This document shows, piece after piece, positions 4,113 through 9,493 of a DNA stretch of 9,611 nt (within the stretch, counting starts at the first letter, position 1; each line of letters opens with the position of its first letter). This DNA is from Candidatus Mcinerneyibacteriota bacterium (GTDB lineage Bacteria; AUK180; JAQVHJ01). The stretch lies in the NCBI GenBank assembly GCA_030630935.1, contig DAOVMD010000082.1, positions 1-9,611 on the forward strand, written 5' to 3'. A model generated the notes under the pieces. That model was given only the letters and a program-made list of their open reading frames with translations, was not told where the DNA came from and made no database searches. The translations under genes were made by a program, and so were the position numbers.

Positions 4113-4193
4113 AAAGAAACAAAAAAACAAAAAAAAGAAAATTTAACATGGACTTTAACGAGACTTACAAAAAATAATTTAAAAACGTTAGAG

Positions 4194-4236
4194 TGTCATT
4201 GCGAGGATTGAACGAAGTGAATGACGTGGCAATCTC
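4194..4236 (-). repeat. Dispersed 'TGTCATTGCGAGG' family repeat, copy 1
   Basis: The piece begins TGTCATTGCGAGGATTG and ends GGCAATCTC. Its reverse complement matches the 3' ends of the two 127-bp direct repeats (GAGATTGCCAC...CGCAATGACA), with a slightly longer middle. This type of intergenic repeat occurs in many unrelated bacterial genomes; its mobility mechanism is not evident here. Confidence 0.7.
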
Positions 4237-4320: not shown

Positions 4321-4348
4321 GAAAAAATAAACAATTGTTGATGTATTC

Positions 4349-4449
4349 ATTCAAAAACAAACGAATTGTATCCCAAACAAAGTAGGGGTTAACGGCGTTA
4401 ACCCGAATCATTTGAATATAATTCTTCGACATAATCAGGGAATAAACTT
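4349..4449 (+). repeat. Structured repeat element A, copy 1
   Basis: An outer stem pairs ATTCAAA (4349-4355) with TTTGAAT (4411-4417). An inner stem pairs GGGTTAAC (4386-4393) with GTTAACCC (4397-4404) around a GGC loop. Core 4363-4449 aligns without gaps to 5015-5101 with 77 of 87 bases equal. Differences inside stems are compensated in the other copy. It may be a non-coding RNA, an RNA-level signal or a DNA palindrome of a small mobile element; no promoter was identified immediately upstream. Confidence 0.7.
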
Positions 4450-4551
4450 ATTAACTTCTTAGGACACAGAGAAAGGTAAAACAAAAATAAAAAAAGAATT
4501 TTAACAGGGACTATATGAGATTTGTAATTGGCTTATATATATTGTTTTTAA

Positions 4552-4589
4552 TTGTTTAAAACTAAAGGTGCTTAAAGATTCAATTGAAT
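4552..4589 (+). repeat. Degenerate repeat B, copy 1
   Basis: Aligns without gaps to 4930-4967 with 31 of 38 bases equal, sharing GTGCTTAAAGA-like sequence. It ends in a small palindrome, TCAATTGA, which in the other copy is TCTATAGA. Confidence 0.5.
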
Positions 4590-4704
4590 GTAAAAATATA
4601 TAAACAGTGAACTTAAGAGTAAGTAACCACGTAGGGTTCCCTATTAAAAAACTAACGAGAACTTTTTTTAAAGAATGGGAAAAATGAAGGATATTTGAAA
4701 TATT

Positions 4705-4733
4705 CAGTAGGGGCGACCGGTCGGGCGCCCTGA
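4705..4733 (+). repeat. AGTAGGGG-headed GC-rich palindrome, copy 1
   Basis: Reads AGTAGGGG, then a self-complementary core containing GACCGGTC, then GCGCCCTGA. It stands out as a GC-rich island in AT-rich surroundings and matches copies at 8053-8082 and, inverted, at 8149-8176. Confidence 0.65.
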
Positions 4734-4929
4734 CCATAAGAAATAAAACACCCATACGATAAAAAAGATAACAACAAAAAGAAGAAAATAAAAAACAAAG
4801 AAAATCACCGCCCCGAAGTAAATCCGGGGTAAACTCCGGACGCAGAGAAAAATAAAAACAACAAAAGCAAAAAAAATATTAACCACTGAACACACTGAAC
4901 ACGCCGCTATATTATAGATTACAATATAC

Positions 4930-4967
4930 TTGTTTAGAACTACTGATGCTTAAAGAATCTATAGAAT
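4930..4967 (+). repeat. Degenerate repeat B, copy 2
   Basis: Second copy of the 38-base piece at 4552-4589, with 7 differences. Two of these (A to T and T to A within the terminal palindrome) preserve its symmetry. Confidence 0.5.
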
Positions 4968-5005
4968 ACAATTTGTATTTGGTTAAATTGACAAAGGCTT
5001 ATTCC

Positions 5006-5101
5006 AAGTCCAAAGAATTGTATCCCAAACAAAGTAGGGGTCAAGGGCCTTGACCCGAATCGTTTGGACTTAATTCTTCGGCATAATCAGGGAAGAAACT
5101 T
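5006..5101 (+). repeat. Structured repeat element A, copy 2
   Basis: The outer stem pairs AAGTCCAAA (5006-5014) with TTTGGACTT (5063-5071), nine pairs. The inner stem pairs GGGTCAAG (5038-5045) with CTTGACCC (5049-5056) around GGC. The single-stranded 22 bases at 5015-5036 are identical to copy 1. Relative to copy 1 the 7-base spacer between outer left arm and core is absent. It lies about 150 bases upstream of the lipoprotein promoter, in the same orientation. Confidence 0.7.
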
Positions 5102-5247
5102 TATAATCACCGAAGACGTGGAGAAAGGTAAACAAAAGGAAAAAGTCTTTTTATAATTGATATTTTTATATAGCATCGTAAGAATGTAAATGCTAATCCG
5201 TTCTTCCTTCTTCATTGTTGCGTCAAGCGAAACTATAATTAAACCTA

Positions 5248-5309: not shown

Positions 5310-6281
5310 ATGAAGAAGAGATATCTTAGTAAACTAAGTTTAGTGTTTTTGTTTTTACTGATTATTTTTACAACACTGGGTTGTTCAAAAATGAGTGATG
5401 AAGAGAGGATTAATTTATATAAAAAGGAAACATATAAATTTCTTGATGAACATCAAGATTATTTTGTAAATCCTGAAACAACCCTAAAAGCAGAAGATAT
5501 GATTAAAGCTTACAATCCAACGGATGATGAATGTTTAGGAATTCAAAGTCAAAATTTATCTAAAATAGATATTGAAAAATTTACATTAGATTTTAAAATA
5601 GAAGATTATGCTGATAAAAATGATTTTTTACTTGAATTAGTATTGTTTTTTCATCTTACTAAAAAATGGGAAGCCACTTTATCAAAAGAAGATATTATAA
5701 TGACAAAAATTATGCCAATATTAAAAGGATCTGATATTAAATTAAAAATGCGCTGGATTTCATATTTAACAGAGTCATTACTTAGTATTCATAATGAAAA
5801 ACTTCCTTTTAAAGAAGAGAATAGGTATATGGTGATGGATTTTTTAATTGAGATTGTTTCAGATAAAAGTAATCCAGTTCTATGTAGATATTTAACTGCA
5901 CGTGCTTGGGAAGCAGGGGAAAATAGAGAAGAAGAAATATATAAAGTATTTAATATCTTACTTCAAGATGAAATTATATTTGAAAAAATGGGAACATTAT
6001 TGTGGTTTTTAAGAAAAGAAGCTCCAAAATTATATGATATGATGTTTTCCATTTTGGAGAAGAGAGAGAAATATTCGGATAAAATTATTTTAGGATCATT
6101 AGGGTTTTTCTTTAGAGATTCAGTTAATTTTCGCAATGATATAAAGGGAAGTAGGAGAAAAAGAATTAAAAAAATATTGAATGAAATATTAAAAGGAAAT
6201 GAAAACAATATTTTAAAAAATAAATCCGAGTTAATTAAATTAAATATAAAGGAAAATGAAAAAGAAGGAAAGTACAAATGA
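5310..6281 (+). CDS. Predicted lipoprotein of unknown function, alpha-helical
   Basis: I do not recognise the family. The 323-residue protein starts MKKRYLSKLS, followed by a hydrophobic stretch (about 9-22) and TTLGC. C25 is the likely lipidated cysteine, although T22 at -3 is not the ideal lipobox residue. The mature part looks largely helical, rich in Lys, Glu, Ile and Leu, with no cysteine pattern or catalytic motif; helix pairs at about 100-270 could suggest a HEAT-like solenoid, but this is a weak impression. The last 45 residues are very basic. AGGAGAG at 5298-5304, five bases before the ATG, fixes the start, and a strong promoter lies just upstream. The first 17 bases of this gene are identical to the first 17 of the second lipoprotein gene downstream. 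Codon use is very AT-rich (AAA, ATA, TTA, GAT), more so than in metG. Confidence 0.82.
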   Translation: MKKRYLSKLSLVFLFLLIIFTTLGCSKMSDEERINLYKKETYKFLDEHQDYFVNPETTLKAEDMIKAYNPTDDECLGIQSQNLSKIDIEKFTLDFKIEDYADKNDFLLELVLFFHLTKKWEATLSKEDIIMTKIMPILKGSDIKLKMRWISYLTESLLSIHNEKLPFKEENRYMVMDFLIEIVSDKSNPVLCRYLTARAWEAGENREEEIYKVFNILLQDEIIFEKMGTLLWFLRKEAPKLYDMMFSILEKREKYSDKIILGSLGFFFRDSVNFRNDIKGSRRKRIKKILNEILKGNENNILKNKSELIKLNIKENEKEGKYK

Positions 6282-6346
6282 AAAAAGTAAAGCGAAACAC
6301 AGACATTCGAAGAATAAGTGGTTCCGTGGGCAGGAACCCTTTATGA
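6278..6346 (+). CDS. Possible 22-codon leader-like ORF between the two lipoprotein genes
   Basis: Its ATG overlaps the stop of the preceding gene as ATGA and has AAGGAAAG five bases upstream, a good ribosome binding site. It would encode a basic peptide beginning MKKVKRNTDIRR and stops with TGA at 6344-6346, which overlaps the GAGG ribosome binding site of the next gene. The arrangement would let ribosomes run continuously from the first lipoprotein to the second. Its 3' half is a palindrome (6320-6338). No known family is recognised and it may be chance; the start context is the only support. Confidence 0.33.
   Translation: MKKVKRNTDIRRISGSVGRNPL
6320..6338 (+). repeat. Inverted repeat GGTTCC-N7-GGAACC before the second lipoprotein
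   Basis: A perfect 6-bp stem with a 7-base loop, ending 15 bases before the ATG at 6354 and just upstream of its ribosome binding site. It could modulate translation of the downstream gene, or be a remnant of a dispersed palindrome. There is no T-run after it, so it is not a typical terminator. Confidence 0.45.
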
Positions 6347-6353
6347 GGTTTGT

Positions 6354-7949
6354 ATGAAGAAGAGATATCTATTATGGAGTGTGTTTTTTGTAATTGCGAG
6401 TGTATTGATATTTTCGTTTTTAAATAACGGGTGTTCGAATACAAAATCGACGAACATATCCCAGGTAAAAAATGAGAAAAAATTAAAGTATCCGGAATGG
6501 CCAGGATTGGATGAGAAGATTGAAAAATATAATAAATTAGTCGAGGGTTCTCCTCCTGAATTAAACGCAACGAGCCTTTTTAAAATGGGAGTTGAAAAAG
6601 AAGACATAAAATGGCATTTCGTGATTTATTTAGATTTGGATTTATCAGAAAATGAAATACAAAATGTAATTGAGGAGATTAATAAAAAAGGTGGAAAGAT
6701 TTACAAGAATATACAAAACCGATCTCTATATATTACTATTTTAAGTATGGAGAGGTTTAAAGATTATTATAATTATTTAAATTCTTTAAAGAAGACTGAT
6801 AAAAGAATAAGATACTTTTATATGAATGATTTAATTGAATATTCATGTTATCACTACTCTCCAATTGATAACACTACTCATATAATATTCAATGAAATTT
6901 TATCAGATGAAGAAAAGAAGGTTTTTGCAAAAAAATATAATTTAAAATTTAAAGAAGGAAATTATTTCAAATTTAATCCAGGACGAGATTTCATTAAGGC
7001 TTATGTGAAAATGTTTGAAGACCCACTTGTAAAAAGGGTTGCTCTCAATGATCTTTATGCTATTAAATCTCTACAAATACAAGAACCTGTTGATACTGAT
7101 TTTAAAAACAAACTTCAGTGGTCTTTAAAATCAAAAAATGATAAAGAACAAAAAGATGAAATTAAGGATAATGGTGATTTGAAGTATCCCGAATGGCCGG
7201 GATTGGATGAAAAGATTGAAGAATATGAAGAAGTTATTAAAGGTGGTAAGAAAGTATATTCAAAAGATTATACAAATTTAGCACGTTTAAAAATAGAACC
7301 TGAAGATATTAAATGGCATTTATGTATTTATGTAATTGGCATAAGAGGTAGTGATAAGTATTTATTTAAAAAAGAGTATTATTTCCCGATAGAAATAGAT
7401 AATTTAATAAAAAGAATTGCGAAGGAAAATAATTGTGAAATACATAAAATAAGTAAGATTTATGGGAGTAGAAAGTATTACATAACTATTAAGAATTATA
7501 AGAAGGAAGAATTAAGAAGATATTATGATCTTTTTAAAATACATAAAGAAATGATAGAAATCAAAACAGATTATCCTAAAAGAATAAGAACAATTAAACT
7601 ACCTTTAATAGGAAGAGTTAGGGTTTATGTTAATTCACTAATAGAATTTAGTATTGGACATCATAGGCCAATTGATATTACAGAAATTCCTATTCGTTTT
7701 TACGATAATGTTACCGAAGAAAAGATTAAGCAGTTTATGAAAAAATATAATATAAAAAGATATAAGAAAAAAACTTTAGGTAAAAATAGGTATGCAGTAT
7801 ATTATAAAGGCAAAGACGAGGATTTTGTAAAATTTTATGTTTCAATTCAGGAAGATCCTATTGTAAATTATGTATCTCTATATGGTTGGGCAAAAGTAAA
7901 ATCATGTAGTGATCAATATTACTATAAACAATGGTATTTAGCGCAATAG
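6354..7949 (+). CDS. Predicted lipoprotein with two tandem copies of a subtilase-propeptide-like region
   Basis: A 531-residue exported protein: MKKRYLL, hydrophobic stretch (about 8-23) and NNGC with C27 as likely lipid site. The body is two homologous halves. Half 1 (44-258) and half 2 (276-528) both start LKYPEWPGLDEKIE and share EDIKWH, LIE-F/Y-S, PID and FEDP/QEDP blocks. Each half ends with a strand-helix-strand-strand-helix-strand-like segment (174-240 and 443-515) resembling peptidase S8 propeptides (I9-like), including the EDPxVxxV element, then a QW(S/Y)L stretch like the first residues of a mature subtilase. No Asp/His/Ser protease domain follows; translation stops at Q531. It may be an inhibitor or chaperone-like lipoprotein, or a remnant of a protease. 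GAGG at 6345-6348 supports ATG 6354 over an in-frame ATG at 6318. Confidence 0.82.
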   Translation: MKKRYLLWSVFFVIASVLIFSFLNNGCSNTKSTNISQVKNEKKLKYPEWPGLDEKIEKYNKLVEGSPPELNATSLFKMGVEKEDIKWHFVIYLDLDLSENEIQNVIEEINKKGGKIYKNIQNRSLYITILSMERFKDYYNYLNSLKKTDKRIRYFYMNDLIEYSCYHYSPIDNTTHIIFNEILSDEEKKVFAKKYNLKFKEGNYFKFNPGRDFIKAYVKMFEDPLVKRVALNDLYAIKSLQIQEPVDTDFKNKLQWSLKSKNDKEQKDEIKDNGDLKYPEWPGLDEKIEEYEEVIKGGKKVYSKDYTNLARLKIEPEDIKWHLCIYVIGIRGSDKYLFKKEYYFPIEIDNLIKRIAKENNCEIHKISKIYGSRKYYITIKNYKKEELRRYYDLFKIHKEMIEIKTDYPKRIRTIKLPLIGRVRVYVNSLIEFSIGHHRPIDITEIPIRFYDNVTEEKIKQFMKKYNIKRYKKKTLGKNRYAVYYKGKDEDFVKFYVSIQEDPIVNYVSLYGWAKVKSCSDQYYYKQWYLAQ

Positions 7950-8052: not shown

Positions 8053-8082
8053 CAGTAGGGGCTACCGGCCGGTCGCCCTGAT
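8053..8082 (+). repeat. AGTAGGGG-headed palindrome, copy 2
   Basis: Head AGTAGGGG, then a stem GGGCTACCGG/CCGGTCGCCC with one mismatch in ten pairs, then TGAT. Copy 3 lies about 70 bases away in opposite orientation. Confidence 0.68.
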
Positions 8083-8148: not shown

Positions 8149-8176
8149 AGGGCGCCCGGCCGGTAGCCCCTACTGC
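8149..8176 (-). repeat. AGTAGGGG-headed palindrome, copy 3 (inverted)
   Basis: The reverse complement reads CAGTAGGGGCTACCGGCC then GGGCGCCCT. With copy 2 it forms a large inverted repeat around 8083-8148, which could pair as one long hairpin in single-stranded DNA or RNA. Confidence 0.68.
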
Positions 8177-8212: not shown

Positions 8213-8250
8213 GCACAGCCTCTTTGATAGAAAGCACAGCCTCTTTGATA
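8213..8250 (+). repeat. Tandem 17-mer at the left edge of direct repeat D
   Basis: GCACAGCCTCTTTGATA occurs at 8213-8229 and again at 8234-8250, a 21-base period. The second unit runs into the 127-bp repeat, so the end of that element is duplicated here. The first unit also forms a small hairpin with upstream bases (GAGGC-ACA-GCCTC, 8210-8222). Confidence 0.7.
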
Positions 8251-8368
8251 ATGACCCAGAACCACGCACTTTGTTAGGGTATCTGGGCGCTGCATTCAGG
8301 CGTTCTTTCCCTGCAAGCAGGGTTTATAAAAGAGATTGCCACCGTCACTACGTTCCTTCGCAATGACA
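8242..8368 (+). repeat. 127-bp direct repeat D, copy 1, flanking the toxin-antitoxin operon
   Basis: Matches 9367-9493 over 127 bases with 5 differences and no gaps. It contains a CCCAGA/TCTGGG inverted repeat (8255-8260 with 8282-8287), a perfect CCCTGC-AA-GCAGGG hairpin (8309-8322), and ends in the GAGATTGCC...CGCAATGACA family repeat. The two copies bracket hepT-mntA in the same orientation. Confidence 0.85.
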
Positions 8369-8426: not shown

Positions 8427-8439
8427 ATATATTTCGTAG

Positions 8440-8493
8440 ACCCGGGTTTTAACCCGGGTATTGAATGCCCCACACACCCGGGACTTCAGTCCC
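8440..8493. repeat. Pair of GC-rich perfect hairpins
   Basis: ACCCGGGTT-TT-AACCCGGGT (8440-8459) and GGGACT-TC-AGTCCC (8480-8493) lie 20 bases apart, with ACACCCGGG between them. Both are of the kind of dispersed intergenic palindrome seen in many bacteria. No adjacent gene suggests a regulatory role. Confidence 0.6.
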
Positions 8494-8669: not shown

Positions 8670-9011
8670 TTATTTTTCGTTTTCTAAGATTATATTAAAA
8701 TGAGATTTAAGAAGGGGGATATCTTTTTTTACTGTATTCCAGACAATATCAATGTCTACACCGAAATAATCATGTATGACTTTATCTCTCATTCCTGCCA
8801 TCTGCTTCCAGGGGACATTGCTGTATTTTTGTTTAAATTCATTGGTTAATCTTTTAGCTGCTTCGCCGATTATTTCAATTTCTCTTATAACGGCTGCTTG
8901 CATCATTTTATTCTCTTTAAACTGTTCTTTATGTACATTTTGAGTGTATTCTTCTATCCTTAAAACTGCATCAAGGATATGTTTAAGATAAATGTTATTG
9001 TTTTTTTTCAT
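8670..9011 (-). CDS. hepT: HepT-like HEPN-domain RNase toxin (DUF86)
   Basis: The 113-residue product is an all-helical HEPN protein with the RX4HXY active-site motif at R75-H80-Y82 (RDKVIHDY), as in HepT toxins, which act as RNases when dimeric. The GEAAKRL segment (49-55) and NVPWKQMAGMRD are typical of the family. Its ATG overlaps the stop of the nucleotidyltransferase gene by four bases (ATGA), and AAGG lies about ten bases upstream, so the two are translationally coupled. In characterised HepT/MntA pairs (type VII toxin-antitoxin), the antitoxin adds AMP to the tyrosine of this motif, here Y82. The length is close to the family norm and nothing appears broken. No terminator was seen after the stop at 8670. 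Confidence 0.93.
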   Translation of the reverse strand: MKKNNNIYLKHILDAVLRIEEYTQNVHKEQFKENKMMQAAVIREIEIIGEAAKRLTNEFKQKYSNVPWKQMAGMRDKVIHDYFGVDIDIVWNTVKKDIPLLKSHFNIILENEK

Positions 9012-9292
9012 TGATAAATTACCTTCATCTCTTTTTTTATAGAATCGATAAGATAAGGACTGATTGAATTTTCTGTAAGCAAGTCTACCTTACGACCCAG
9101 GGATGCATAGAGTTCCTGCTCTATTCCTACGATTTCCAACAAACTTATTTCACCGATAAATTCTACAATTATGTCAATGTCACTTACAGGGGTCTGTTCA
9201 TCCCTGGCATAGGAACCAAATATAGAAATCTTCTTAACCCCATGCTTTTTTAAAATAGAAATTATCTCTTCATATATTTTTTCTTTTTTCAT
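9008..9292 (-). CDS. mntA: MntA-like minimal nucleotidyltransferase antitoxin
   Basis: A 94-residue minimal nucleotidyltransferase. The defining GSX10DXD motif is intact: G26-S27, then ten residues, then D38-I-D40. D70 in RKVDLL is the third acidic residue expected for metal and nucleotide binding. In known pairs this protein neutralises HepT by adding AMP groups to its active-site tyrosine. It precedes hepT and overlaps it by four bases. The start is fixed because an in-frame TGA lies 18 bases upstream and no other start codon lies between. There is no ribosome binding site upstream, and a promoter -10 box ends only nine bases before the ATG, which suggests a leaderless or near-leaderless mRNA. 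The operon sits between 127-bp direct repeats. Confidence 0.93.
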   Translation of the reverse strand: MKKEKIYEEIISILKKHGVKKISIFGSYARDEQTPVSDIDIIVEFIGEISLLEIVGIEQELYASLGRKVDLLTENSISPYLIDSIKKEMKVIYQ

Positions 9293-9330: not shown

Positions 9331-9366
9331 GAAAATTAGAAACGAGTCAATCTTAGAGTACCGGCT

Positions 9367-9493
9367 TCTTTGATAATGACCCAGAACCACGCACTTCGTT
9401 AGGGTATCTGGGCGCTGCATTCAAATGTTCTTTCCCTGCAAGCAGGGTTTATAAAAGAGATTGCCACAGTCACTACGTTCCTTCGCAATGACA
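9367..9493 (+). repeat. 127-bp direct repeat D, copy 2
   Basis: Same orientation as copy 1 and offset by 1125 bases. The five differences include four transitions (T8272/C9397 and GGC/AAT at 8298-8300 versus 9423-9425) and one C/A change near 8334/9459. The CCCTGC-AA-GCAGGG hairpin is unchanged (9434-9447). Flanking sequences differ on both sides. Confidence 0.85.

Follow-up and report, generated by a model that had tools for sequence, protein, structure and literature searches.

Dispersed hairpins with compensated stems in a Mcinerneyibacteriota genome as probable GTAG-tagged REPs

Introduction

The GTAG-tagged REPs form a super-family of 24 families, including the REPs of Escherichia coli, Pseudomonas and Stenotrophomonas (Di Nocera et al. 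2013, PMC3733652), and in its published families dimers and conserved spacers occur, as do subfamilies whose stems carry alternative, mutually complementary residues (PMC3733652). A rule established for REP searches places GTAG or GTGG 0–2 nt 5′ of a stem of 7–20 bp closed by a 2–5 nt loop (PMC6006769). For TnpA-REP enzymes, cutting and rejoining beside the hairpin was shown in vitro (PMC8266576).

Here we consider two copies of a structured repeat in a 9,611-nt stretch of Candidatus Mcinerneyibacteriota DNA (contig DAOVMD010000082.1, hereafter the window), which a first-pass annotation had read either as an undescribed non-coding RNA or as a small mobile palindromic element. Both copies conform to the REP rule: no nucleotide separates GTAG from the 8-bp stem, which is fully paired and closed by a 3-nt loop. 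We explain them as GTAG-tagged REPs (probability about 0.75), that is, non-autonomous DNA elements with GTAG directly 5′ of an 8-bp stem, a 3–4 nt loop and a body of ~100 nt, which would have been spread by a HuH Y1 transposase. As a kind, such elements are not undescribed: a catalogue of GTAG-tagged REPs appeared in 2013 (PMC3733652). The case illustrates that finding compensated stems in two dispersed copies is not sufficient to infer an RNA.

Results

Two copies in the window

The gapless match between positions 4363–4449 and 5015–5101 is borne out, with 77 of 87 positions equal, whereas 15 shuffles of this intergenic stretch gave no match better than 49. The repeat extends further, at 78% identity, over 4349–4492 and 5001–5144. 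Within it, the inner stem described earlier is real and carries two fully compensated pairs between copies 1 and 2. Three further features of the window had not been annotated: the foot of the hairpin carries an unpaired GTAG, another hairpin, the third, lies at 4707, and those at 8055/8150 form an inverted pair (Table 1).

The outer stem fared differently. ATTCAAA in copy 1 (4349–4355) is homologous to ATTCCAA in copy 2 (5001–5007), and the GTCCAAA (5008–5014) that had been taken as its copy 2 counterpart lies 7 bases out of register, so that the outer-stem differences are not compensatory at homologous pairs. Consequently, only 4 of the 10 core differences, all of them in the inner stem, are compensated at homologous pairs, and not the six originally counted. 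Correctly aligned, 4 of the 7 pairs are Watson-Crick in copy 2, and 2–6 of the 7 in five other copies. Seven aligned copies sharing these flanks had 72.9% of outer-stem cells paired against 71.1% when shuffled (166/500, not significant), with a weak covariation that was also not significant (44/500 shuffles), and the unshifted register beats slid registers. The outer stem as a compensatory structure is therefore rejected, given the wrong register and the lack of significant covariation. The first-pass annotation had expected its structural reading to fail if more copies showed uncompensated stem changes; this is what the outer stem shows and what the inner stem does not.

Table 1. Repeat features located in the window (positions are those of the whole stretch).
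Feature	Coordinates	Strand	Basis
Copy 1 REP core: GTAG tag (4382–4385) and hairpin GGGTTAAC-GGC-GTTAACCC (4386–4404)	4382–4404	+	
Copy 2 REP core: GTAG tag (5034–5037) and hairpin GGGTCAAG-GGC-CTTGACCC (5038–5056)	5034–5056	+	
Left module A, copy 1: ~42 conserved nt directly 5′ of GTAG	4340–4381	+	Pattern matches and conservation profile
Left module A, copy 2	4992–5033	+	Pattern matches and conservation profile
Right module 3, copy 1: GAATC...TAATTCTTCGACATAATCAGGGAA, then weaker tail	4405–4492	+	
Right module 3, copy 2	5057–5144	+	
Third GTAG hairpin, GGGCGACC-GGTC-GGGCGCCC, with A-G mismatch; different left flank, right module 4	4707–4730	+	
GTAG hairpin, left half of BIME-like inverted pair, GTAG outside	8055–8078	+	
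GTAG hairpin, right half of the inverted pair with 8055	8150–8173	−	

Other features were seen in the same window. At 8436–8459, GTAGACCCGGGTTTTAACCCGGGT combines GTAG with a palindrome directly 3′ of it, of another stem type. A 130-nt repeat, 95% identical between 8239–8368 and 9364–9493, represents a second dispersed repeat family; its CGCAATGACA end matches an inverted piece near 4190 (4183–4204), and a GGCAATCTC piece often adjoins module A on the left in other contigs. Two adjacent ORFs of 94 and 113 aa (8670–9292, minus strand) resemble, by eye, a putative MNT-HEPN (nucleotidyltransferase/HEPN) toxin-antitoxin pair. Finally, 5310–6281 and 6318–7949 are lipoprotein-like ORFs with no Pfam match, the latter with an internal duplication.

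Copy number, location and relatives

The assembly to which the window belongs comprises 3.16 Mb in 471 contigs and is 80% complete. With copy 1 as the query, 44 blastn matches were returned from it, and across its many contigs the pattern GTAGGGG-N8-22-CCC was counted 157 times, the reversed control 25 times. The GTAG hairpin family is thus present well over 100 times in this genome, with shuffled flanks. Considering ORFs of at least 100 aa from simple ORF calling, with no curated genes, 46 of 50 scored copies are located outside ORFs. In the sister genus of the same family, whose assembly is 72% complete, the GTAGGGG hairpin framework has 116 matches versus 39 for the control, and recognisable versions of both flanks can be aligned. 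This GTAG-REP family, found in both family genera examined, is added from an uncultured lineage.

The whole element has no match in the five other genomes of the class, and the element pattern with left module A returned 0 records in GTDB contigs, a collection from which its own and near genomes may be missing. Other GTAGGGG hairpins with matched stems are found in two further genomes (G006 and G022), and literature searches with the core sequence gave unrelated matches only. Many dispersed copies, the GTAG tag, the extragenic location, inverted pairs and the sharing with a sister genus all agree with the proposal of a small mobile palindromic element.

The palindrome is kept while its sequence changes

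The stem question was answered by direct pair counts on a detailed set of 88 copies whose 19- or 20-nt hairpin is intact, in which the five variable stem pairs (positions 4–8) provide 440 cells. Common to all intact copies is a GTAG followed directly by GGG-palindrome-CCC, and alternative complementary stem residues occur among subfamilies. The set comprises 44 different hairpins and 11 different perfect stems, the perfect stems being found in 45 of the 88 copies. At positions 4–8, Watson-Crick pairs occupy 393 of the 440 cells, other mismatches 46 and G-T a single one; shuffling arms between copies gave a mean of 269 Watson-Crick cells and a maximum of 301, and since the copies are related these counts show that palindromes are kept and are no counts of independent events. 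The 22 distinct 19-nt hairpins collected from the two genera have 97.2% of their cells paired and reach a covariation score of 0.406; shuffles gave 0.138 (0/500), and slid partners never exceeded 0.042.

Matched changes on both arms could also arise from replication errors, when a polymerase switching template within a quasi-palindrome copies one arm onto the other, in a REP that may no longer move. Such correction explains both the paired changes and the missing G-T intermediates without any enzyme, and the 45 perfect stems speak for it. However, many of the 46 mismatches (A-G in 22 copies, T-C in 10) have become fixed throughout subfamilies, which indicates that correction would be inefficient, and neither dispersal nor the exchange of flanks is explained. 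We regard this account as unlikely; palindrome correction during replication is nevertheless the main rival for the stem changes, and it may act alongside REP spread.

RNA stems normally change through G-U. The lack of G-T among changed stem pairs points to DNA rather than RNA, an argument and not a proof given that independent mismatch events are few (about a dozen by our estimate). A structured non-coding or cis-acting RNA, spread as a regulatory unit with its fold under selection, would account for the covariation of the inner stem, and the minus strand of both copies does fold better than shuffled sequence (z −3.6 and −3.7), an effect that a strong palindrome produces in large part by itself. 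Against it, the larger fold of copy 1 on the plus strand is no better than shuffled (z −0.84), G-T is as rare in the variable stem cells as counted above, the outer stem is not conserved, the flanks are exchangeable and the strand of a copy does not strictly follow that of the genes next to it. No Rfam family was found on the copies, either at the gathering score or at E up to 1. RNA is in our assessment a very unlikely explanation, and the two elements are most likely not a new RNA. Elsewhere in the window, a PreQ1 riboswitch match (4627–4661) scored 21.7 bits versus a cut-off of 39 and was set aside as sub-threshold and probably due to chance.

Short, non-coding, palindromic and dispersed elements also recall a MITE of a DDE-type transposon, a terminator or an attC-like site, the least probable readings of all, in view of a conservation profile that only fades ~42 nt left of GTAG with no terminal inverted repeats recognised on the ~100-nt unit, of GAATC instead of a T run directly 3′ of the hairpin in both window copies, and of copies that are scattered and not arranged in cassette arrays.

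A mosaic of modules

The left neighbour of the hairpin is either module A or one of several other sequences, which often end with CA; on its right, the hairpin is joined to at least four modules. The module A sequence GNATTGTNTCCCAAAC matched 60 times with one mismatch allowed, versus once for the control, and right module 3 is found at 13 places in the examined loci of the genome. Module A combines with seven stem classes (one of them mixed) and four right modules, and 85 copies present 41 distinct left/stem/right combinations. These combinations are not entirely random (permutation p ~0.0005–0.001 for every pairing of left, stem and right), as would result from common descent together with exchange. 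In about seven copies (L286, L287, L294, L149, L105, L315, L154), module A and GTAG, mostly GTAGGGG, lead into an entirely different hairpin, often CATTGTTTGC-TCTC-GCAAACAA-CAG, followed by other repeats.

Both the mosaic and the kept palindrome could be accommodated by the GTAG-REP reading. Once in single-stranded form, e.g., as lagging-strand template, the GTAG strand would fold, and an enzyme of either the TnpA-REP/RAYT or the IS200 kind, a HuH Y1 transposase, would cut beside the hairpin and join the piece elsewhere, spreading copies through the genome. Loss of stem pairing would end mobility, so that surviving stems would stay palindromic, and rejoining at the hairpin feet would swap flanks and give rise to a mosaic. 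A bolder version, possible but in our view doubtful, treats left modules, hairpins and right modules as interchangeable parts, joined at the hairpin feet by an enzyme unlinked to the repeats; the family would then evolve by cassette-like shuffling of single-stranded DNA ends and not by whole-unit copying. The mosaic and the near absence of G-T make the single-stranded-DNA model of REP spread testable between close strains.

Candidate Y1 transposases

Three Y1 transposase genes are found in the genome. No GTAGGGG hairpin lies near them (0 of 3 loci) or near those of the sister genus (0 of 7) in assemblies that are 80% and 72% complete, and since repeats also break contigs, a linked Y1 gene could be missing from these assemblies; relaxed hairpin scans near Y1 genes returned weak, unrelated stems only. 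Given that this flanking hallmark is lacking, we file the repeats as GTAG-REPs and not as a REPtron. The best resident candidate, a 290-aa Y1 protein encoded on contig C338, has an HTH_23-like stretch at its C-terminal end, just under the Pfam cut-off.

Y1 is present in 30 of the 41 genomes compared for GTAG hairpins, which makes a hairpin/Y1 correlation uninformative. In the distant genome G022, a GTAG hairpin lies within ~0.1–1.2 kb of 3 of 9 Y1 loci, which is suggestive only. One locus of that genome (L322) harbors two identical GTAG hairpins (1772 and 1837) ~200–260 bp away from a domain of Y1 transposases, which recalls a REPtron.

Comparison with known systems

With the GTAG-REPs, the repeats share an unpaired GTAG at one end, a short stem with a 2–4 nt loop, high copy number, extragenic location, dimers and subfamilies with alternative complementary stem residues. 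They differ in that a longer conserved body, whose left and right modules are exchangeable, surrounds the hairpins, in that G-T pairs, often seen in the published families (PMC3733652), are almost absent, and in that no REP-flanked RAYT gene was found.

Some copies, and only some, also resemble BIMEs: hairpins occur in inverted pairs with GTAG outside, as at 8055/8150 and in other contigs (e.g., C70 and C94), the 8055/8150 pair being ~95 bp apart with a conserved spacer, and hairpins are combined with other repeats in a mosaic. Unlike in BIMEs, most module A copies are single, and mosaicism goes as far as replacing the stem while the flanks on either side stay the same.

Strand-specific recognition of GTAG and hairpin, with cleavage at CT or CA beside the hairpin, would be shared with the TnpA-REP/RAYT systems of E. 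coli, Stenotrophomonas and Marinomonas REPtrons (PMC8266576), as a proposal, whereas the resident Y1 proteins do not reach the NCBIfam cut-off for RAYT. With TIRYT, or TnpA-Y1 subclass 2.1 (PMC3733652, PMC6006769), the C338 protein shares the HTH_23-like C-terminal stretch and its gene the flanking 23-nt inverted repeat. These terminal repeats are unrelated to the GTAG hairpins and a class with similar C-terminal features was reported as not REP-associated (PMC6006769), so the protein is a candidate mobiliser only.

Point by point, the anatomy fits GTAG-REPs, to which the repeats are assigned by that anatomy. The kind of element is ordinary, its lineage is unusual and the mosaic is unusually clear.
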